From Cyanobium sp. Cruz-8D1 (lineage in GTDB: Bacteria; Cyanobacteriota; Cyanobacteriia; PCC-6307; Cyanobiaceae), in contig NZ_JAGQCD010000005.1 of the NCBI RefSeq assembly GCF_024345975.1, positions 62,001 to 126,000 of the forward strand: 64,000 nt of DNA, given 5' to 3'. The position numbers were made by a program, and so were the translations under genes. This document shows positions 47,753 through 57,830 of this stretch, piece by piece. The stretch's first letter is position 1. The number at the start of each line of letters is the position of its first letter. The notes beneath the pieces were generated by a model. The model did not search any database, was not told where the DNA came from, and worked only from the letters and a program-made list of their open reading frames with translations.

Positions 47753-47877
47753 TCCCTCAACGGCAAGCCAACGCTGATCTTAGGTGGGGGCTCATTTCAG
47801 TGGTTTTTCTACAGGACGGATGCCTGCCCGGCGGTGTTAGCTTCACGCCACATCCCAATGGCGGAGCAGGTTTCAAG

Positions 47878-49269
47878 ATGTTGCGAGTGGCAGTCGTGGG
47901 CGGCGGCCCCAGCGGTTCCTGTGCTGCAGAAGTTCTCGCCAAGGCAGGCCTCCAGACCTGGCTGTTCGAGCGCAAGCTGGACAACGCCAAGCCCTGTGGC
48001 GGCGCGATCCCCCTCTGCATGGTGGAAGAGTTCGACCTGCCGGACTCCATCATCGACCGCAAAGTGCGGAACATGCGGATGATCTCCCCCTCCAACAGGG
48101 AAGTGGACATCCACCTGGAGAACAGCAACGAATACATCGGCATGTGCCGTCGGGAAGTTCTCGACGGTTTCCTGCGCAACCGGGCCGCCGAGCTGGGGGC
48201 CCAGCTGGTCAACGGGCTGGTGCAGAGCATCGACACCGGCAACCAGCGTCAGGGCCCGTACACCCTCCACTACGCCGACTACTCGTCCGGCGGCCCCACC
48301 GGCGAGCTGAAAACCCTCGAGGTGGACCTGATCGTCGGGGCCGACGGCGCCAACAGCCGCGTGGCCAAGGCCATGGATGCGGGCGACTACAACGTGGCGA
48401 TCGCCTTCCAGGAGCGGATTCGCCTGCCCGCCGAGGAGATGGCCTACTACGAGGATCTGGCGGAGATGTACGTCGGCACCGATGTGTCGCCTGATTTCTA
48501 CGCCTGGGTCTTCCCCAAGTACGACCATGTGGCGGTGGGCACGGGCACGATGCAGGCCAACCAGTCGCTGATCAAGGGGCTCCAGAAAGGCATCCGCGCC
48601 CGGGCCAGCCGGCGCCTGCTGCGCGGCGAGGTGATCAAGGTGGAAGCCCACCCGATTCCCGAGCATCCCCGCCCCCGGCGGGTGGTGGGCCGCATGGCCC
48701 TGGTGGGGGACGCGGCCGGTTACGTCACCAAGAGCTCCGGTGAAGGCATCTACTTCGCCGCCAAGAGTGGCCGCATGTGTGCCGAGGAGATTGTGGCTTC
48801 CAGCGCCTCCGGCAGCCGCATTCCCACCGACAAAGACCTCAAGGTCTACATCCGCAAGTGGGACCGCAAGTACGGCGCCACCTACAAGGTGCTGGAGCTC
48901 CTGCAGAACATCTTCTACAGCAACGATCCCGCCCGTGAGGCGTTTGTGGAGATGTGCGATGACAAGGACGTGCAGCGCCTCACCTTCGACAGCTACCTCT
49001 ACAAGCGGGTGGTTGCGATGAACCCCTGGCAGCAGATCAAGCTGACCGTGCTCACCCTGGCTGCGGTTTTGCGGGGTCAGGCCCTGGCCCCGGCTGGCTA
49101 CAAGCCGGTACCCAGTGCCGTGCGCTCGGCCGAGGAGGCGGAAGCGATCTTCCTGGCCGCCGAGCCCCGCTCCTCGATGAAGCCTGCGGGCGTTCACGCC
49201 GCCACCCCGCCCGTGGATCCCCAGGCCGGAACCGATTCCACCAAGGAAGCGGAGCTGGTGGCCAAGTGA
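47878..49269 (+). CDS. chlP: geranylgeranyl reductase ChlP
   Basis: A 463-aa flavoprotein. The FAD motif VAVVGGGPSGSCAAEVLAKA is at the N-terminus, KPCGGAIPLCM follows, and VGDAAGYVTKSSGEGIYFA lies near residue 285. It reduces geranylgeranyl groups to phytyl for chlorophyll a and tocopherol. The ATG at 47878 is the family start. The C-terminal 30 residues are low complexity (PPVDPQAGTDSTKEAEL). It converges on the CNNM/CBS gene with an 8-base gap. Confidence 0.96.
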   Translation: MLRVAVVGGGPSGSCAAEVLAKAGLQTWLFERKLDNAKPCGGAIPLCMVEEFDLPDSIIDRKVRNMRMISPSNREVDIHLENSNEYIGMCRREVLDGFLRNRAAELGAQLVNGLVQSIDTGNQRQGPYTLHYADYSSGGPTGELKTLEVDLIVGADGANSRVAKAMDAGDYNVAIAFQERIRLPAEEMAYYEDLAEMYVGTDVSPDFYAWVFPKYDHVAVGTGTMQANQSLIKGLQKGIRARASRRLLRGEVIKVEAHPIPEHPRPRRVVGRMALVGDAAGYVTKSSGEGIYFAAKSGRMCAEEIVASSASGSRIPTDKDLKVYIRKWDRKYGATYKVLELLQNIFYSNDPAREAFVEMCDDKDVQRLTFDSYLYKRVVAMNPWQQIKLTVLTLAAVLRGQALAPAGYKPVPSAVRSAEEAEAIFLAAEPRSSMKPAGVHAATPPVDPQAGTDSTKEAELVAK

Positions 49270-49277
49270 GAAAGCCT

Positions 49278-50597
49278 TCAGACCGGCCCCTCGGCCTCGT
49301 CTGAGGTCTTAGCGGAGCGGCTCACCAGGAGTTTGTCGACCCTATTGCCATCCATGTCCACCACCTCGATGCGAAGGTCTTCCCATTCGAAGGCTTCGCC
49401 GGCGCTGGGAATGTGCTCGAGATGGTGCATCACGAATCCACCCAGGGTCTGGTAACCCCCACGGACTTCTTCCGGCAGGTTTTCCTTCTGGACCAGGTCC
49501 TTGAAGTCAGCAATGTCGAGGATGCCATCGAGCAGCCAGGATCCATCCTGGCGAACGATGATCATCGGATCCTCCTTGTCTCTGGCGGAGGAAAGATCAC
49601 CCACGATCGCCTCCATCACGTCGTTGAGGGTCACCAGTCCTTCGATACCGCCGAATTCATCGGTGACCAGGGCAATGTGAACCCCGCTGGTTCTGAATTG
49701 TTCGATCAGCTTCAGGGCCCTGGTGCTCTCGCCCACGTACAGCGGCGGTTGCAGCAACGCCTCGATCTCCCGGGGGCCATCGGAGAGCTGGGCTGCCAGG
49801 ATGGCGCGGCCGCGGACCACGCCGACACAGGCGTCGAGGCTGTCGCGTGCCACCGGAAACAGGGAATGATTCACCCGCATCACCCGCTCGAGGTGGGACT
49901 GGGGGGATTCGGAGAGATCCAGCCAGCAGATTTCGGTGCGGGGCGTCATGATCGCCTTGACAGGTCGATCGGCCAGGCGAAACACCCGCTCCACCATGGC
50001 GTGTTCCGCCACTTCAAACAAGCCTGATTCCGTGCCCCTACGCAGCAGAGTCCTGATCTCGTCTTCGGTGATCTCAGGCTCACCACTCTCGCCAATGCCC
50101 ATCAGGCTGAGCAGCCGATCGGTGGAGGAGCCGAGCAGATGGGCCACGGGGGCCATCCAGCGCGACAGGGCCCGCATCGGGGGCGCCACGAGGCAGGCGA
50201 AGCGCTCCGGATCACTGAGGGCGATGCGCTTCGGCACCAGTTCGCCCAGCACCAGGGAGAGAAAGGTGATGAGCGTCACCACGATGCCCAGGGCGAGGGG
50301 TTCGGACCAGGGGCGCAATGGGGGCACCGTCTGCAGCAGCAGCCGCAACGACTCGGCCGCCCGCGAGCCGCCCAGAGCGCCACTGAGGATGCCGATCAAA
50401 GTGATGCCGATCTGCACCGTCGAGAGGAAATCGTTGGGGGAACGGATTAGTTTCAGAGCCACTTCCGCCTTCGGGTCCCCAGCCTCCGCCTGGTGTTCGA
50501 GGCGCAGTCTCCGAGCCGACATCATGGCCAACTCCGAACCCGAAAAGATGCCGTTGATCAGTATCAACACGACAATCAGTAAACCGTCGAAAAGCAT
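49278..50597 (-). CDS. CNNM-CBS-CorC_HlyC membrane protein
   Basis: A 439-aa protein of the hemolysin C/CorC group. It has an N-terminal DUF21/CNNM membrane domain (LLIVVLILINGIFSGSELAM, SFLSLVLGELVPKRIAL), paired CBS domains (TEICWLDLSESPQSHLERVM, VALVTDEFGGIEGLVTLNDV) and the small CorC_HlyC domain (GGFVMHHLEHIPSAGEAFEW). Such proteins are linked to magnesium or other divalent-cation efflux. I use the ATG at 50597 (MLFDGLLIVVL); the frame continues to 50645 without homology. It is divergent from the methyltransferase of the PKS operon. Confidence 0.9.
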   Translation of the reverse strand: MLFDGLLIVVLILINGIFSGSELAMMSARRLRLEHQAEAGDPKAEVALKLIRSPNDFLSTVQIGITLIGILSGALGGSRAAESLRLLLQTVPPLRPWSEPLALGIVVTLITFLSLVLGELVPKRIALSDPERFACLVAPPMRALSRWMAPVAHLLGSSTDRLLSLMGIGESGEPEITEDEIRTLLRRGTESGLFEVAEHAMVERVFRLADRPVKAIMTPRTEICWLDLSESPQSHLERVMRVNHSLFPVARDSLDACVGVVRGRAILAAQLSDGPREIEALLQPPLYVGESTRALKLIEQFRTSGVHIALVTDEFGGIEGLVTLNDVMEAIVGDLSSARDKEDPMIIVRQDGSWLLDGILDIADFKDLVQKENLPEEVRGGYQTLGGFVMHHLEHIPSAGEAFEWEDLRIEVVDMDGNRVDKLLVSRSAKTSDEAEGPV

Positions 50598-50804
50598 CGG
50601 CAAATCCAGTGATGGCCCATCCGCCTGCGAACGGATGGCAAGCACAAGTTAATTGACGATGACGTAGCTCCAGGCCATGAACCCCATGTCTGGAGGCTGC
50701 CACGCCGTTGCCTGGAACGGATTAGCGTCCCATAGCTATCACGTCAGCCTGCGCGCAGAGCACTCCCGTCTGACCAGCCGCCCCACCCCCAGCCACCTTC
50801 CCCG

Positions 50805-51542
50805 ATGCATTGGCAGCCACTGGCCGAGCGGAACCGGCAACCAGAGTGGATGGATCAGGTCGGCATCGATGCCGCCGCGCACGACCAAGCCTTGCAAGGC
50901 CTGCGCCGGATCAATGCCTTGAGCGGTGCTGTGGGGTCCCTGTTCACTGAGATCAAGGCCCTGACCGCTGAACAGGCGCACAACCGCCCCCTGCGAATTC
51001 TGGATGTGGCCTGCGGCGGCGGTGATAACAGCATCGCCCTGGCGGAACGCTGCCGAAGCCATGGTCTGGCCGTGCAGGTCGACGGCTGCGATCTGAGCCA
51101 GCAGGCGGTGGCCATCGCCTGCCGTCATGCCGCTGATAAGGATGTGCAGGCCACGTTCTTCCAGGCCGACGCCTTGAGGGATCCCCTGCCGCTGGATTAC
51201 GACGTCGTGGTCTGCAGTCTGTTTCTGCATCATCTCGATGAGACCAGCGCCGTCGAACTGCTGCGCCGCATGGGCCAGTGCTGCCGCCAGCTGCTACTGG
51301 TGAACGACCTGATCCGCAGTCCCCTCGGGTATGGGCTGGCGTGGGTGGGCTGTCGCCTGCTGAGTCGCTCCCCGATTGTGCATTTTGATGGTCCCGTTTC
51401 GGTGCAAGGGGCTTTCCGGATGGACGAGGCCCTGGATCTGACGGTCCAGGCTGGCCTTGGGGGGGCCCGCGTCCGGCGCAGCTGGCCCGAGCGCTTCCTG
51501 CTCAGCTGGCGACGACCCGCCCTGGTCCTTCAGGCCCCATGA
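50805..51542 (+). CDS. SAM methyltransferase of the type III PKS operon
   Basis: A 245-aa class I methyltransferase. SAM motif I is ILDVACGGGDNSIALAER (residues about 64-81), followed by VDGCDLSQQAVAIA and VVVCSLFLHHLDETSAVELL. The pattern fits small-molecule O- or C-methyltransferases. It is the first gene of a coupled trio; its TGA overlaps the ATG of the flavoprotein gene (ATGA). By analogy with Streptomyces srsABC and cyanobacterial alkylresorcinol clusters it probably methylates the phenolic lipid ring. Substrate and position are inferred. The upstream 207-base spacer shows no clear promoter. Confidence 0.85.
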   Translation: MHWQPLAERNRQPEWMDQVGIDAAAHDQALQGLRRINALSGAVGSLFTEIKALTAEQAHNRPLRILDVACGGGDNSIALAERCRSHGLAVQVDGCDLSQQAVAIACRHAADKDVQATFFQADALRDPLPLDYDVVVCSLFLHHLDETSAVELLRRMGQCCRQLLLVNDLIRSPLGYGLAWVGCRLLSRSPIVHFDGPVSVQGAFRMDEALDLTVQAGLGGARVRRSWPERFLLSWRRPALVLQAP

Positions 51543-52693
51543 GCGCTCCGGAGTGGGATGTGATCGTGCTCGGGGCAGGGCCCGCTGGCGCCCTGGCGGC
51601 CCACCAGCTCTCCAGGCAGCGGCTGCGGGTGCTGCTGGTGGAGAAGCGGGCCTTTCCCCGCTGGAAGGTCTGCGGCACCTGCCTCAACGGGGTGGCCCTC
51701 GGGGCGCTGGCCCAGGCCGGCCTCCCGGGCCTGGTGGAACAGCTCGGCGGTGTGCCCCTCGTGCGGCTACGCCTCGGCCTGCAGGAGCATCAGGCGGATC
51801 TGGCGCTTCCCCTGGGCCGATCCCTCTCCCGGGGCAGCCTCGACCTGGCCCTCTGCGATGCCGCGGTGGCCGAAGGAACGGTGTTGCGGATGAACACCGA
51901 GGCCACGGTGGCGGGCCCCTGCCCAGGCGGCCGGCAGGTGCGGCTGAACAGCGGAGCCACGCCTGAAACCACCAGCGCCCGTGTGGTGCTGCTGGCGACC
52001 GGGCTGGGCAGCTCAGGGCTGAACCCTGCCAGCCCGATCCGGACTCGGGTCCAGGTCCACTCCAGAGTGGGTGCCGGCTGCCGGGTGGACGCCAGCGCCA
52101 GCAGGTATGGCCGGGGCACGATCCATATGGCGATCGGACGGCACGGCTACGTCGGGCTGGTGCGCACCGAAGCCGGTGATCTCAACCTGGCGGCGGCCTT
52201 CGACCGTGCCCATCTGATCCAGGCGGGCGGAGCGGCGCTCGCCGCCGCCGGCGTGCTGGCGGAGGCCGGATTCGATCCCGTCCCCCAAGCGTCCGCCGCC
52301 AGCTGGCTGGCCACCCCGGCCCTGACCGTTCGCCGTTGGCCGTTGGCGTCCGAGCGGCTGCTGTTGCTGGGGGACGCTGCCGGGTACGTCGAACCCTTCA
52401 CGGGAGAGGGCATGGGCTGGGCCCTGGTGGGGGCTCTGGCGGCGGTGCCGCTGGTGCTGCAGGGCCAACACCAATGGAGCAGGGAGCTCGAACGGCAATG
52501 GGGCCACCGCCACCGGCAGCTGATCGGATCTCGCCAACGCCACTGCCGTGGACTGGCCTTCGCCCTGCGGCGTCCTGGCCTCAGCCGCGCTCTCCTGGCA
52601 GCGGTGGAGCGCTGGCCGATCCTGGCTGCCCCCTTCCTGCATTCCATCGATGGCGCCAGCTTGACCCCGCTTGCCTCCAGGCCATGTCCCTGA
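51539..52693 (+). CDS. FAD-dependent hydroxylase/reductase-like flavoprotein
   Basis: A 384-aa flavoprotein of the geranylgeranyl-reductase/PHBH superfamily. The N-terminal GxGxxG is VIVLGAGPAGALAAHQLS, a KVCGTCLN segment follows, and the second FAD motif is LLLLGDAAGYVEPFTGEG (residues about 277-294). It differs from chlP in this window in length and in lacking its C-terminal part. Between a methyltransferase (ATGA overlap) and a type III PKS (10-base overlap) it most likely oxidises the alkylresorcinol ring to a quinol or phenol, as SrsC does in Streptomyces. A reductase role cannot be excluded. Confidence 0.83.
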   Translation: MSAPEWDVIVLGAGPAGALAAHQLSRQRLRVLLVEKRAFPRWKVCGTCLNGVALGALAQAGLPGLVEQLGGVPLVRLRLGLQEHQADLALPLGRSLSRGSLDLALCDAAVAEGTVLRMNTEATVAGPCPGGRQVRLNSGATPETTSARVVLLATGLGSSGLNPASPIRTRVQVHSRVGAGCRVDASASRYGRGTIHMAIGRHGYVGLVRTEAGDLNLAAAFDRAHLIQAGGAALAAAGVLAEAGFDPVPQASAASWLATPALTVRRWPLASERLLLLGDAAGYVEPFTGEGMGWALVGALAAVPLVLQGQHQWSRELERQWGHRHRQLIGSRQRHCRGLAFALRRPGLSRALLAAVERWPILAAPFLHSIDGASLTPLASRPCP

Positions 52694-53781
52694 CCATTCA
52701 GGGCCTGGGAACGGCCCTGCCACCTCAGCGCATCGCCCAAGGCGATGCCGCCGCCATCGCGGCCCAGGTGGCCCTGCCCAACCAGGTCCCTTCTCCAGGC
52801 CAGCGTCGGCTGCTGGATACCCTGCATCGCCGCTCAGGCGTCGCCACGCGCCACAGCGTGCTGCTCGATCCCCCCGGCAGCGACCCCCGACAAACCTTCT
52901 TTGGAGCCACCAGCCCCGGCACCGGGGAGCGGATGCGCCGCTATGCACGGGAGGCCCCCCCCCTGGCCCTGCGTGCCGTCGAGGCAGCCCTCGCGCAGGC
53001 CCAGCTGTCCCCGGAACGGATCACCCATCTGATCACGGTCTCCTGCAGCGGCTTCGCGGCCCCCGGCGTCGATCTCGCTTTGATGGCCGCCCTGCCGCTG
53101 GACGCTGGTCTGGCGCGCACCCATGTGGGATTCATGGGCTGCCACGGGGCCCTCAATGGTCTGCGGGTGGCCGCCGGATTCACCGGTGTTGAGCCGGAGG
53201 CCTGTGTGCTGCTCTGTGCCGTCGAGCTCTGCAGCCTCCATCTCCAGTACGGCTGGGATGCTGAGCGCATCGTGGCCAATGCCCTGTTCGCCGACGGGGC
53301 CGCCGCCCTGGTGGCCACCGGAAGGACCGGGGCAGAGAGGGCCCCAGCAGCGGCGCGCCTGGCCCAGCTGATCGCCAGCGGCTCCCTGCTGGTGCCAGCC
53401 AGTGCCGACGCCATGTCCTGGGAGATCGGTGACCACGGCTTCGCCATGGGCCTGTCTCCGCAGGTTCCTGACCTGATCAGCGAGCATCTGCGTCCCTGGC
53501 TGGAGCGGTGGCTGGCCGCCCACCAGCTGACGTTCGCCGCCATCGGCTCCTGGGCCGTGCATCCAGGCGGGCCCCGCATCCTCTCGGCTGTCACGAAGGG
53601 CCTGGAGCTCGATCCCCGACTGATCGAACCCTCACGGTCGGTGCTGCGGGATTACGGCAACATGTCGTCCCCGACGCTGCTGTTCATCCTTGAGCGGCTG
53701 CGGCGCAGCGGTGCCCCAGGGCCCTGCCTGGCCATGGCCTTCGGCCCCGGCCTGTGCATCGAAGTGGCCCTGCTGGCGTGA
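52684..53781 (+). CDS. type III polyketide synthase, alkylresorcinol-type
   Basis: A 365-aa chalcone/stilbene synthase-fold protein. The catalytic triad is intact: C153 in GFMGCHGALNG, H293 in WAVHPGGPRIL and N326 in RDYGNMSSPTLLF. Such enzymes extend an acyl starter with malonyl-CoA and cyclise it to resorcinols or pyrones. Given the methyltransferase and flavoprotein upstream, a long-chain starter and a methylated phenolic lipid (hierridin-like, as reported from Cyanobium) are likely. The ATG at 52684 overlaps the flavoprotein gene by 10 bases; the frame open to 52336 is an artefact. Its TGA abuts the convergent glyS stop with no gap. Confidence 0.93.
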   Translation: MSLTIQGLGTALPPQRIAQGDAAAIAAQVALPNQVPSPGQRRLLDTLHRRSGVATRHSVLLDPPGSDPRQTFFGATSPGTGERMRRYAREAPPLALRAVEAALAQAQLSPERITHLITVSCSGFAAPGVDLALMAALPLDAGLARTHVGFMGCHGALNGLRVAAGFTGVEPEACVLLCAVELCSLHLQYGWDAERIVANALFADGAAALVATGRTGAERAPAAARLAQLIASGSLLVPASADAMSWEIGDHGFAMGLSPQVPDLISEHLRPWLERWLAAHQLTFAAIGSWAVHPGGPRILSAVTKGLELDPRLIEPSRSVLRDYGNMSSPTLLFILERLRRSGAPGPCLAMAFGPGLCIEVALLA

Positions 53782-55947
53782 TCACGCCCCCAGGCGGGCG
53801 AAGTCGGCGAGCACGGCGGCCTGGTTGCGCAGCACGGCCAGGAGCCGCAACCGGTTGCGGCGCACCTCCGGTTCCTCACACATCACCATGACGCTGTCGT
53901 CGCCATCGAAGAAGGCGGCCAGGGTGGCGCCGCTCTCCCCCAGCAAACGGGCGAGGGGCTCGTAGCGGGCGGTTCCGGTGGCGGCGGCATGCAGGGCCAA
54001 TCGCTGCAGCACCGCCAGCACGGCCGCCTCACTGGGGGAACCGAAGAGCTTCGGGTCCACCACGCCAGCCGGGCTGAGCACGTCAGCGGCCAGATCGGCG
54101 TGTTCGGCCAGGCGGGAGGCCCGTTGCACCACCGCCTGCACCAGGGGCAAGCGCTCCTCCAGGCGCAGGCGCCGCAACAGGTCCACCCGGGCCCTGGCAT
54201 CGGCCGGATCCCGCAACAGCCGCTCAAGCGAAACGCCCTCACCGGCCACGGCCTGCACCAGATCGGCGCTGAAGCCCTCCTCCTCCAGCAGGCTGGCGAG
54301 GCGCTGACGCAGGAAGTCGAGCAGGTCGGACGCCAAGACCAGTGGCTCGACCGCCAGGGCGGGCAGCAGGCCCTGCCAATGGGCCGTCGCTTCGGCCATC
54401 ACAGCCACCAGATCGAGCGACCAGCACCGTTCCCAGAGGATCTGCAGCACGCCGTTACCGGCACGGCGCAGGGCATAGGGGTCGGAGGAGCCGCTGGGCC
54501 TCTCCCCCCTGGCGAAGATGCTGAGTAGCAGCTCCAGTCGCTCGGCCAGGGCCAGCAGGGCGCCCGCCTCCGAACTCGGCAGAGCATCGCCGGCCCCACG
54601 GGGCTGGTAGTGCTCCAGCACCGCCAGGGCCACGGCGCGAGTTTCCCCCTCCGCCAGCAGGTATTTGGCCCCCATGATCCCCTGCAACTCCGGGAATTCC
54701 CCCACCATCTGGCTGACCAGGTCGTGCTTGCAAAGGGGAGCGGCCCGGCGGGCGGCGCTGGCCGCCTCCTCGCCGATCGGCAGGTGGCGGCCAAGCTGAC
54801 CGGCCAGCCAGGCGAGACGCCGGCTGCGGTCGGCCAGACTTCCCAGCCCTTCGGCAAAGGTGACCCGGTCGAGGGCTTCCACCCGCTCGGCACTGCTCTG
54901 ACGGCGATCCGCCGCCAGGAAGAAAGCCGCGTCCGCCAGCCGCGCCCGCAGCACCCGCTCGTTGCCGCGGCGGATCGTCTCGGCGGCGGCGTCCAGACCA
55001 TTGGAGATGCACAGGAAGCGCGGCAGCAGCACCGACTCCGCCACCAGGGCGAGGGGATCGCCCGTGGCCCCCGAGAACCGCAGGGGCACATAGCGCTGGT
55101 GGGAACGCATCACCGTGCTGAGCACCTCCGGAGGCAGAGCCAGATAGGCGCTGTCGATACGGCCCTCGATCAAGCGGGGGGATTCCACCAGGTCGACCAG
55201 TTCGTCGAACAGCGCCTCGGGCAGATCCAGTTCGGCCCCGACCCGCTCGGCGGCCGCCTCCAGCTCAAGGCGAATCCTCTGTCCCCTGGCCTCCCGGTCG
55301 ACCTGTACGTCGGCGGCCTCCAGGGTGGCGGCGTAGGCCCCGGCGGAGGGGATCGACACGGCTCCTTGATGCAGACGATGGCCACGGCTGAGGCGGCCGC
55401 TGCTCAGGGGCGGATCCACATCAGTGAGCTGCAGCGGAACCACCGCCCCATCCAGCAGCGCCACCAGCCAGCGCAGGGGCCGGCTGAAGCGGCCGTCGCC
55501 ATCGCCCCAGCGCATGAAGCGCCGTCCCTGCAGGGAGCGGATCCAGCCGGGGATGCAGCCGGCCAGCACCGCCTCGGCGGAGCGGCCGGCCTCAGTGGTA
55601 CGGGCGAACACGAAGGGACCCTTGTCGGTGTCGCGGATCTCCAGCTGCTCCGGCCCGCAGCCGCAACGGCGGGCGAAGCCCAGAGCGGCCTGGGTGGGCT
55701 GGCCATCACGGAACGCCTGCTGGGCCGGCGGACCCTTACGGTCCTCGACCAGATCCTGCTGGCGGTCGGGCAAACCGGCGATGGTCACCGCCAACCGACG
55801 GGGGGTGCCGCTGGCTCTGAGGCTGTCCCAGGACAGGCGGGCCTCCTGCAGATCCCTGGCCACGATCGCCTCCAGCTGGGGCTGGGCCAGGCGAACGAAA
55901 TCGGCCGGTAGTTCCTCGGTTCCGATCTCCAGAAGAAAGGTGGCCAT
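53782..55947 (-). CDS. glyS: glycyl-tRNA synthetase beta subunit
   Basis: A 721-aa protein with the GlyS beta signature: MATFLLEIGTEELPADFVRL at the N-terminus, SGTPRRLAVTIAGL, EDRKGPPAQQAF, RRGNERVLRARLADAAFFLA, and a C-terminal anticodon-binding region of the ArgRS type. It forms the alpha2beta2 glycyl-tRNA synthetase with GlyQ, which is not in the window. The ATG at 55947 is the family start. Stop codons of glyS and the PKS gene are back to back (TGATCA). Confidence 0.96.
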   Translation of the reverse strand: MATFLLEIGTEELPADFVRLAQPQLEAIVARDLQEARLSWDSLRASGTPRRLAVTIAGLPDRQQDLVEDRKGPPAQQAFRDGQPTQAALGFARRCGCGPEQLEIRDTDKGPFVFARTTEAGRSAEAVLAGCIPGWIRSLQGRRFMRWGDGDGRFSRPLRWLVALLDGAVVPLQLTDVDPPLSSGRLSRGHRLHQGAVSIPSAGAYAATLEAADVQVDREARGQRIRLELEAAAERVGAELDLPEALFDELVDLVESPRLIEGRIDSAYLALPPEVLSTVMRSHQRYVPLRFSGATGDPLALVAESVLLPRFLCISNGLDAAAETIRRGNERVLRARLADAAFFLAADRRQSSAERVEALDRVTFAEGLGSLADRSRRLAWLAGQLGRHLPIGEEAASAARRAAPLCKHDLVSQMVGEFPELQGIMGAKYLLAEGETRAVALAVLEHYQPRGAGDALPSSEAGALLALAERLELLLSIFARGERPSGSSDPYALRRAGNGVLQILWERCWSLDLVAVMAEATAHWQGLLPALAVEPLVLASDLLDFLRQRLASLLEEEGFSADLVQAVAGEGVSLERLLRDPADARARVDLLRRLRLEERLPLVQAVVQRASRLAEHADLAADVLSPAGVVDPKLFGSPSEAAVLAVLQRLALHAAATGTARYEPLARLLGESGATLAAFFDGDDSVMVMCEEPEVRRNRLRLLAVLRNQAAVLADFARLGA

Positions 55948-56054
55948 GCGGGGGGGCGGGCAGGACGCGACTGTATGCAAAGGAGGGAGATGGCGATCAG
56001 CGCCAGCGAACCGATCCATCCCGTTCGCTAGTTTCGTTCGACCAACCCTTCTGC

Positions 56055-57830
56055 ATGCCGATGTCCTCGACGACGGTCGCCGACAGCACGTCGCTCCCAT
56101 CGGCCTCCCCCGCTACCCCCCCCACCAAACAGGAGGCGCTCAAAGCCGGCAGTGGCCATCTGCATGATCCCCTGGCCGCCGAGCTTGGCAATGCGCTGCC
56201 CAGCTTCACCGATCCCGCCGTCCAGATCCTCAAGTTCCACGGCAGTTACCAGCAGGACGACCGGGACAACCGTCGCAAGGGGGTCGAGAAGGACTGGCAG
56301 ATGATGCTGCGGCTTCGGAATCCCGGCGGGCGCATTCCCACCTCTCTGTATCTGGCCCTTGATTGCCTCGCCGATCGGCTGGGCAACGGCACCCTGCGCA
56401 TCACCACCCGCCAGGCCTTCCAGATGCACGGCGTTCAGAAGACCGACCTCAAGGAAGTGATCGGCGGCATCGTGCGGGCCCTTGGCTCGACGCTTTCGGC
56501 CTGTGGAGATATCAATCGCAACGTGATGGCCCCGGCCGCTCCCTTCGAGCGGGATGGCTACCCGGAGGCCCGTCTGCTGGCGGATCAGATCGCCGACCTG
56601 CTGGCGCCCCAGGCGGCCGAGGGGTCCTATCTGGACCTCTGGGTGGACGGTGACCTGAGCTACCGCATCAAGCCCAAAGGGCCCGTGAAGAAGGCGCGAC
56701 GCCTGCAGGAGAGCGGTGCTGTGTTCAGTGGCGATGCGGCCGAACCGCTCTACGGCGCCACCTACCTGCCCCGCAAGTTCAAGGTCGCCGTCACCGTTCC
56801 CGGTGACAACTCCGTCGATCTGCTGACCCAGGACATCGGCCTGGTGCTGTTCAGTGATCCCTCCGGCCGGCCGCTGGGTTGCAACGTCTACGTCGGTGGG
56901 GGCATGGGGCGGACCCACAACAAGGAGGAAACCTTCGCCCGCACGGCCGATCCCCTCGGTTATGTGGCCGCCGGCCATGCACTGGAACTGGTGCAGGCGA
57001 TCGTGGCCCTGCAGCGCGACCACGGCGACCGCGAACAGCGCCGCCATGCCCGGATGAAGTATCTGATCCACGACCGTGGTGTGGACTGGTTCAAAACCGA
57101 ACTGGGTCGTTACTTTCCCCATCCGATCAAGGGGATGCGCCGCGAACCGACCGCCGTCCTCACCGACTACCTGGGTTGGCACCGCCAGTCCCCGGGCCTG
57201 TGGTTCGTGGGTCTGCCCGTGCTCTGCGGACGCCTGCAGGGGGACCTCAAGACCGGCCTGCGCCGGTTGATCGAGACCTACCAGCTGGAGGTGCGGCTCA
57301 CCCCCAACCAGGACCTGCTGCTCTGCAACATCGGCAGCGCCCAGCGGGTGTCGGTGCGGCAGGCCCTGGCGGAGCTTGGCCTCACCAGCCCTGAGGCCCC
57401 GCCCCCCCTGGCGCGTCACGCCCTGGCCTGCCCGGCCCTGCCCCTCTGCGGCCTGGCCGTCACCGAGGCCGAGCGGGTCCTCCCCGATGTGCTCGCCCGC
57501 CTCGACGCCCTGCTGGAGCGCCTGGCGATCAGCAAGCCGCTCCTGGTGCGCATGACGGGCTGTCCCAACGGCTGCGCCCGCCCCTACATGGCCGAGATCG
57601 GCTTGGTCGGGAGCGCTGTGGACACCTACCAGCTATGGCTCGGTGGTAGCCATGGCCTCACGCGTCTGGCCAGGCCCTACCTGGAGAAAATGCCCCTGGA
57701 GAAGCTGGAAGCGACCCTGGAGCCCCTGCTGACGGCCTGGCGCGACGAGGGCGGCCCCCGTAGTCGCTTCGGCGACTTCACTGACCGGCTCGGTGACCAA
57801 CGGGTCAGCGAGCTGCTCTCCCCTGCCTGA
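56055..57830 (+). CDS. sir: ferredoxin-sulfite reductase
   Basis: A 591-aa assimilatory sulfite reductase. The four ligands of the 4Fe-4S/sirohaem centre are C459 and C465 (CPALPLC) and C503 and C507 (TGCPNGC). N-terminal motifs include ILKFHGSYQQDDRDNR and LRITTRQAFQMHGV. It reduces sulfite to sulfide with ferredoxin electrons. The first 30 residues are Ser/Thr/Pro-rich and may be dispensable. It diverges from glyS with a 107-base spacer and is followed by a nested hairpin. Confidence 0.95.
   Translation: MPMSSTTVADSTSLPSASPATPPTKQEALKAGSGHLHDPLAAELGNALPSFTDPAVQILKFHGSYQQDDRDNRRKGVEKDWQMMLRLRNPGGRIPTSLYLALDCLADRLGNGTLRITTRQAFQMHGVQKTDLKEVIGGIVRALGSTLSACGDINRNVMAPAAPFERDGYPEARLLADQIADLLAPQAAEGSYLDLWVDGDLSYRIKPKGPVKKARRLQESGAVFSGDAAEPLYGATYLPRKFKVAVTVPGDNSVDLLTQDIGLVLFSDPSGRPLGCNVYVGGGMGRTHNKEETFARTADPLGYVAAGHALELVQAIVALQRDHGDREQRRHARMKYLIHDRGVDWFKTELGRYFPHPIKGMRREPTAVLTDYLGWHRQSPGLWFVGLPVLCGRLQGDLKTGLRRLIETYQLEVRLTPNQDLLLCNIGSAQRVSVRQALAELGLTSPEAPPPLARHALACPALPLCGLAVTEAERVLPDVLARLDALLERLAISKPLLVRMTGCPNGCARPYMAEIGLVGSAVDTYQLWLGGSHGLTRLARPYLEKMPLEKLEATLEPLLTAWRDEGGPRSRFGDFTDRLGDQRVSELLSPA

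Follow-up and report, generated by a model that had tools for sequence, protein, structure and literature searches.

Here we describe a three-gene locus of Cyanobium sp. Cruz-8D1 that is very probably a hidABC operon directing the synthesis of a phenolic lipid of the hierridin type. In the 64,000-nucleotide stretch of DNA that we analysed (hereafter the window), the three genes are adjacent and co-directional and run from a methyltransferase through an oxidoreductase to a type III polyketide synthase (PKS). The name hidABC belongs to the hierridin operon of Cyanobium sp. LEGE 06113 (Costa et al., 2019, as cited), in which the order is hidA>hidB>hidC (PMC8086630). The operon is real, a preliminary description of the locus was correct in outline, and the kind is already known and ordinary for the genus. 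Judged from sequence, anatomy, phylogeny and residues all agree, and no departure from the hidABC kind was found. We computed the gene set, its order and relatedness, the intact catalytic residues, a Trp/Met pair and purifying selection; chain length, hydroxylation and the number and site of methylations would follow, by analogy, the published hidABC pathway.

By that pathway, HidC would extend a long fatty acyl thioester with three malonyl units and close the ring by a C2-C7 aldol reaction to a 5-alkylresorcinol, HidB would carry out an FAD-dependent hydroxylation of the ring, and HidA would methylate ring hydroxyls to yield a methoxylated alkylphenol, for example hierridin B.

The trio and its gene products

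The three open reading frames and their -4 (ATGA) and -10 junctions agree to the base, in coordinates and overlaps, with the preliminary description. The features of the locus are as follows:

47800-49269: ChlP, geranylgeranyl reductase, two genes away from the trio
49278..50645, minus strand: CNNM/CBS/CorC_HlyC membrane transporter-like gene, divergent flank and one border of the fixed site
50805..51542, plus strand: hidA-like class I SAM-dependent methyltransferase, 245 aa (ATG start, Pfam, NCBIfam)
51539..51542, plus strand: hidA/hidB stop/start overlap ATGA (-4)
51539..52693, plus strand: hidB-like FAD flavoprotein, GGR/PHBH fold, 384 aa (ATG start, Pfam, AlphaFold2 model)
52684..52693, plus strand: hidB/hidC overlap of 10 bases, ATGTCCCTGA
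52684..53781, plus strand: hidC-like type III polyketide synthase, 365 aa (ATG start, Pfam, triad C153-H293-N326, W246, M255)
53782..56100, minus strand: glyS, glycine-tRNA ligase beta subunit, convergent flank, its stop abutting the hidC stop

All three products match Pfam families over the cut-off, namely Methyltransf_25 for HidA (5.8e-17), FAD_binding_3 for HidB (3.5e-10), and Chal_sti_synt_C (1e-22) and Chal_sti_synt_N (4.7e-18) for HidC. The genes are under purifying selection, with dN/dS values of 0.14-0.31 against three congeners. A scan for promoter-like sites gave 0 against an expectation of 0.2, and one for terminator-like sites gave 1 against 1.1, so that neither is informative. A secondary-metabolite search of the whole 3.97 Mb genome, which covered type III PKSs and NRPS condensation domains, found HidC of the window as the sole type III PKS and no NRPS condensation domain; an earlier remark that there are otherwise only core genes concerned the window, not the whole genome.

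The nearest NCBIfam model to HidA is NF004851, a hypothetical protein, at 240 bits and thus 3 bits short of its cut-off of 243; UbiG and UbiE are among the weaker matches. In a family search up to E = 1, HidA matched class I SAM methyltransferase families only, and no match to an isoprenylcysteine family was found. The AlphaFold2 model of HidB (pLDDT 88.1) adopts a PHBH/flavin halogenase fold, and among the 50 matches listed in a fold search halogenases lead with 14-19% identity, alongside aromatic hydroxylases at 14-18%. By analogy we infer O-methylation for HidA and ring hydroxylation for HidB.

Two other assignments for HidB were considered and rejected. Membership in the geranylgeranyl reductase family (TIGR02032, GG-red-SF) fails at the curated cut-off of 158.8 bits, since HidB scores 94.1 bits; ChlP of the window scores 191.8. 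Flavin-dependent halogenases carry a WxWxIP motif, and HidB might have been the missing chlorinase for hierridin C; halogenases lead its fold search, yet by eye it contains no WxW. A paper on CylC-type halogenases mentions neither hierridin nor Cyanobium. The GxGxAG and PRxKxCGxC motifs of HidB and its C336 are invariant in 28/28 aligned rows, which come from several phyla, so that C45 and C48 of the CGxC element and C336 are kept throughout; C48 is absent from the ChlP of the window. By TIGR02032, with HidB below the cut-off, ChlP is of the same superfamily as HidB, and it stays near the trio in congeners that have the trio at this site.

Distribution, descent and losses

HidC matches (E <= 1e-10) occur in 85 of 251 genomes of the family, its own included. 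We examined 60 places in 59 of the 84 other matching genomes, which together with the window make 61 loci, and the trio, for which the preliminary description had suggested a search of picocyanobacterial genomes, stands in the order A>B>C in 52 of them, window included. The other nine comprise three C>A>B loci, two deletion remnants, one locus with hidA beyond the contig end and three lone distant PKSs. C>A>B is the second arrangement named in PMC8086630, and these loci carry a far PKS (40-45% identity) with HidA at 32-33% and HidB at 27-29%. The 10-base hidB-hidC overlap recurs in 39 of the 52 A>B>C loci and the ATGA overlap in 19. At order level, HidB (E <= 1e-40) was found in 53 of 150 genomes; the four congeners in this sample whose sites are scarred or empty gave no match at the same threshold.

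In addition, a genome_contigs scan yielded at least 565 confirmed relatives, the best 80 of which were analysed: 45 from Cyanobacteriota, 23 from Planctomycetota, 4 each from Hydrogenedentota and Gemmatimonadota, 1 each from Acidobacteriota and Elusimicrobiota, and 2 without a phylum. None of these 80 carries the strain name LEGE 06113. HidA, HidB and HidC stand in order at 71 of these 80 loci; six of the other nine begin at a contig end or close to it (L101, L129, L141, L153, L154, L155), and at the remaining three (L119, L139, L157) a partner is weak or missing. Because it recurs at 52 of 61 family loci and at 71 of the best 80 of 565 genome_contigs loci, the ordered trio is not a chance arrangement.

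The trio in Planctomycetota is already published (PMC10896814). The same order was also seen on contigs labelled Gemmatimonadota (L142, L145, L170, L171), Hydrogenedentota (L133, L137, L149, L152), Acidobacteriota (L161) and Elusimicrobiota (L165). L170 (Gemmatimonadales) lies in a metagenome-assembled chromosome record of 4.1 Mb, which speaks against a stray contig there. In a literature search for the trio outside cyanobacteria and planctomycetes, none of the matches listed (10 of 125) pairs hierridin with Gemmatimonadota or Hydrogenedentota, and we do not claim that such a pairing is absent from print. Two further observations concern individual relatives. One congener (G090) has two type III PKS matches, the second of which (L090 6548-7795) is closest, among solved structures, to Azotobacter ArsC (3vs8/3vs9) and by eye has a Trp and a Met nine residues apart, like ArsB. 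In another genus, G108:C7:5220-7410 may be a decaying hid operon, with an internal TAA in hidC and hidB in two pieces in different frames.

A HidC tree was built from 95 rows, 92 of them different. Its 56 cyanobacterial A>B>C-type rows, window included, make up a single clade (100/98) that was recovered in 100% of 200 bootstrap trees; for four of the 56 (L101, L129, L141, L153) an upstream gene lies beyond the contig. Outside this clade are the 35 rows from other phyla, among which several long branches meet, so that their branching order and the direction of any transfer can be read only tentatively. A first tree that included ArsC and PKS11 placed both inside the clade on branches of length 10, which we regard as an artefact, and the tree was rebuilt without them. 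Pairwise distances of the three proteins are correlated (A-B r 0.94, A-C 0.89, B-C 0.93; 0/500 permutations as high) across 112 of 135 loci, namely those with all three genes within length limits and C>A>B left out. These values suggest that the hid genes tend to move together, as their linkage would lead one to expect.

Within the genus, 17 genomes were sampled, 14 with and 3 without a HidC match, and the trio is intact in 12, scarred by deletion in 2 and absent from 3. Nine of the 12 intact trios are flanked by the CNNM gene and glyS, and chlP lies outside this pair. In G148 and G062 none of the four neighbours turned up near the trio, and the trio of G175 is diverged and sits on a different contig; hidB of G113 stays open for 113 codons beyond its normal end. 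A second genus (g51) has the trio between chlP and glyS in two genomes. Of the scarred loci, that of G163 (L047 6932-7798) joins the hidA start in frame to HidC, with no hidB, in an open frame of 288 codons that keeps triad motifs; the two tblastn alignments, HidA 1-39 and HidC 101-365, overlap at their ends, and inspection by eye puts the junction at about codon 29 of hidA and residue 107 of HidC. That of G198 (L071 6895-7165) runs in hidA to about codon 38 and continues, frameshifted, from about residue 284-287 of HidC. Each retains sequence missing from the other, which marks them as separate deletions. G226 (L172 4044-4171) and G235 (L173 4009-4133) have 126 and 123 unaligned bases in place of the trio, and G243 gave no HidC match (E <= 1e-10).

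Sequence comparison thus suggests that the trio is an optional trait that was lost at least twice. Being scarred or absent in 5/17 congeners, it is not essential, and its uneven spread within one genus speaks for a conditional trait. The two different deletion remnants and two empty sites at the same chromosomal site form a natural series in one genus. Such pairs with and without the trio make the unsettled role of hierridin testable by strain comparison, and the operon itself ties a short, testable set of genes to a defined lipid of small cyanobacteria.

The predicted product and its rivals

The triad C153, H293 and N326, which had been described as intact, is kept together with F202 (CHS F215) in 135/135 aligned sequences, window included. 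M255 occupies the gatekeeper position of CHS Phe265 (F265), where a conserved Met has been reported for the HidC clade (PMC8086630), and W246 corresponds to ArsB W281. This Trp decides between resorcinol and pyrone: ArsB W281G becomes a pyrone maker, ArsC G284W does the reverse, and Met293 of ArsC moves with residue 284 (PMC6274091). Nine residues separate W246 from M255, as they do positions 284 and 293 of ArsC. One search pattern contains that Trp, which makes its presence in the 80 genome_contigs loci circular in part, and we restrict this evidence to the 55 loci picked without a residue pattern (window and three C>A>B loci included), all of which have both W246 and M255. In mechanistic terms, the pair could explain why the methionine is conserved. 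Given the hidABC kind, the clade membership and a Trp that favours resorcinol over pyrone, the alkylresorcinol core is well predicted, and the phenolic-lipid reading of the preliminary description, with its pointer to hierridin, gains support from the published hidABC order, the HidC clade and the residues.

If HidC instead lactonised a tri- or tetraketide, no resorcinol ring would form and its partners would modify an alkylpyrone, a pathway that we consider very unlikely. The best-scoring solved sequences and folds are those of the pyrone synthases PKS18 and PKS11: the first five rows of a Foldseek search with the AlphaFold2 model of HidC (pLDDT 88.2) are PKS11, a Mycobacterium marinum type III PKS and PKS18, and ArsC is not among the matches listed (60 of 103) for HidC against solved sequences. 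The cyanobacterial survey also leaves room for pyrones (PMC8086630). However, HidC shares its W246/M255 pairing with ArsB and with ArsC G284W, whereas PKS18 and the Ectocarpus PKS have Leu/Cys, PKS11 Trp/Leu and wild-type ArsC Gly/Met, and related planctomycete enzymes yielded resorcinols (PMC10896814). The Trp taken singly is not exclusive, as the pyrone maker PKS11 also has it. A non-lipid synthase of the tetrahydroxynaphthalene or DpgA type, acting with tailoring enzymes, is scarcely credible. DpgA is the best NCBIfam match of HidC, but at 161.9 bits it lies far below the cut-off of 425. HidC, for which grouping with tetrahydroxynaphthalene synthases had been proposed as a refutation, does not group with them: 1u0m, which we take to be such a synthase, scores 116.6 bits, 44 below the 160.2 of PKS18, and the Foldseek list, led by PKS11 and PKS18, agrees. 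The published tree likewise separates DpgA (Clade 1) and RppA/THNS (Clade 2.1) from the hierridin-like enzymes (Clade 3.222; PMC8086630).

A further possibility concerns purpose rather than chemistry and does not exclude a hierridin-type hidABC operon. The lipid could be a methoxy-hydroquinone that cycles to the quinone and serves as an electron carrier or membrane protectant; we hold this to be unlikely here, and equally so the wider proposal that a membrane methoxy-(hydro)quinone is an alternate electron carrier or antioxidant in picocyanobacteria, planctomycetes and other phyla. Actinobacterial operons of a type III PKS, a methyltransferase and an oxidoreductase make electron-carrying polyketide quinones (PMC9927152), hierridin B has been termed a methylated hydroquinone (PMC7181126), and UbiG and UbiE appear among the weaker HidA matches. 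On the other hand, the srs methyltransferase belongs to another family than HidA, the trio is dispensable in the genus as described above, and full O-methylation would presumably block redox cycling. If the proposal held, the hid quinone would be convergent with the actinobacterial polyketide quinones and gained and lost with niche, with hierridin B as its O-methylated final or stored form.

Comparison with known systems

In srsABC of Streptomyces and pkqABC of Mycobacterium, as in hidABC, a PKS, a methyltransferase and an oxidoreductase act on an alkylresorcinol, and PkqA, like HidC, carries a Trp at the position of ArsB 281 (PMC9927152). The preliminary description had called srsABC the same set, which we do not uphold: srsB is an isoprenylcysteine carboxyl methyltransferase (PMC6669644), a type that HidA, of class I, did not match up to E = 1, and the PKS gene comes first in the actinobacterial operon (PMC9927152) and last in the window. 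Moreover, SrsA and PKS11 fall in the published Clade 2.22, apart from the hierridin-like Clade 3.222 (PMC8086630).

Azotobacter ArsB and ArsC use a long-chain acyl starter, and ArsB shares its Trp and Met with HidC. We know of no methyltransferase/flavoprotein pair that accompanies them. They work with the fatty acid synthase ArsA (PMC6274091) and belong to Clade 3.221, which neighbours the hierridin-like clade (PMC8086630).

The planctomycete operon has the same methyltransferase-oxidoreductase-type III PKS order as the window (PMC10896814). Its loci share about 36-58% identity with the window proteins (tblastn, best 80 of 565 relatives), and its HidC rows fall outside the cyanobacterial clade. 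On expression, the PKSs of such operons from Gimesia maris and Rhodopirellula baltica gave alkylresorcinols, and co-expression of the Gimesia methyltransferase and flavoprotein added one methyl, probably on carbon, with the flavoprotein role left unresolved in that report (PMC10896814). This probable C-methylation differs from the O-methylation proposed for HidA, and the tailoring chemistry may therefore differ here. A planctomycete PKS deletion mutant is reported to suggest that the function differs from the one in other producers of alkylresorcinols (PMC10896814).

Finally, the closest likeness is to hidABC itself. A survey, which also reports two clusters in C. gracile PCC 6307, lists 47 hierridin-like cyanobacterial clusters (PMC8086630), so that the specific metabolite predicted in the preliminary description is not surprising. 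Compared by description with LEGE 06113, the trio shows no difference from the published hidABC, with which it shares gene order, the three protein kinds and the gatekeeper Met (PMC8086630).
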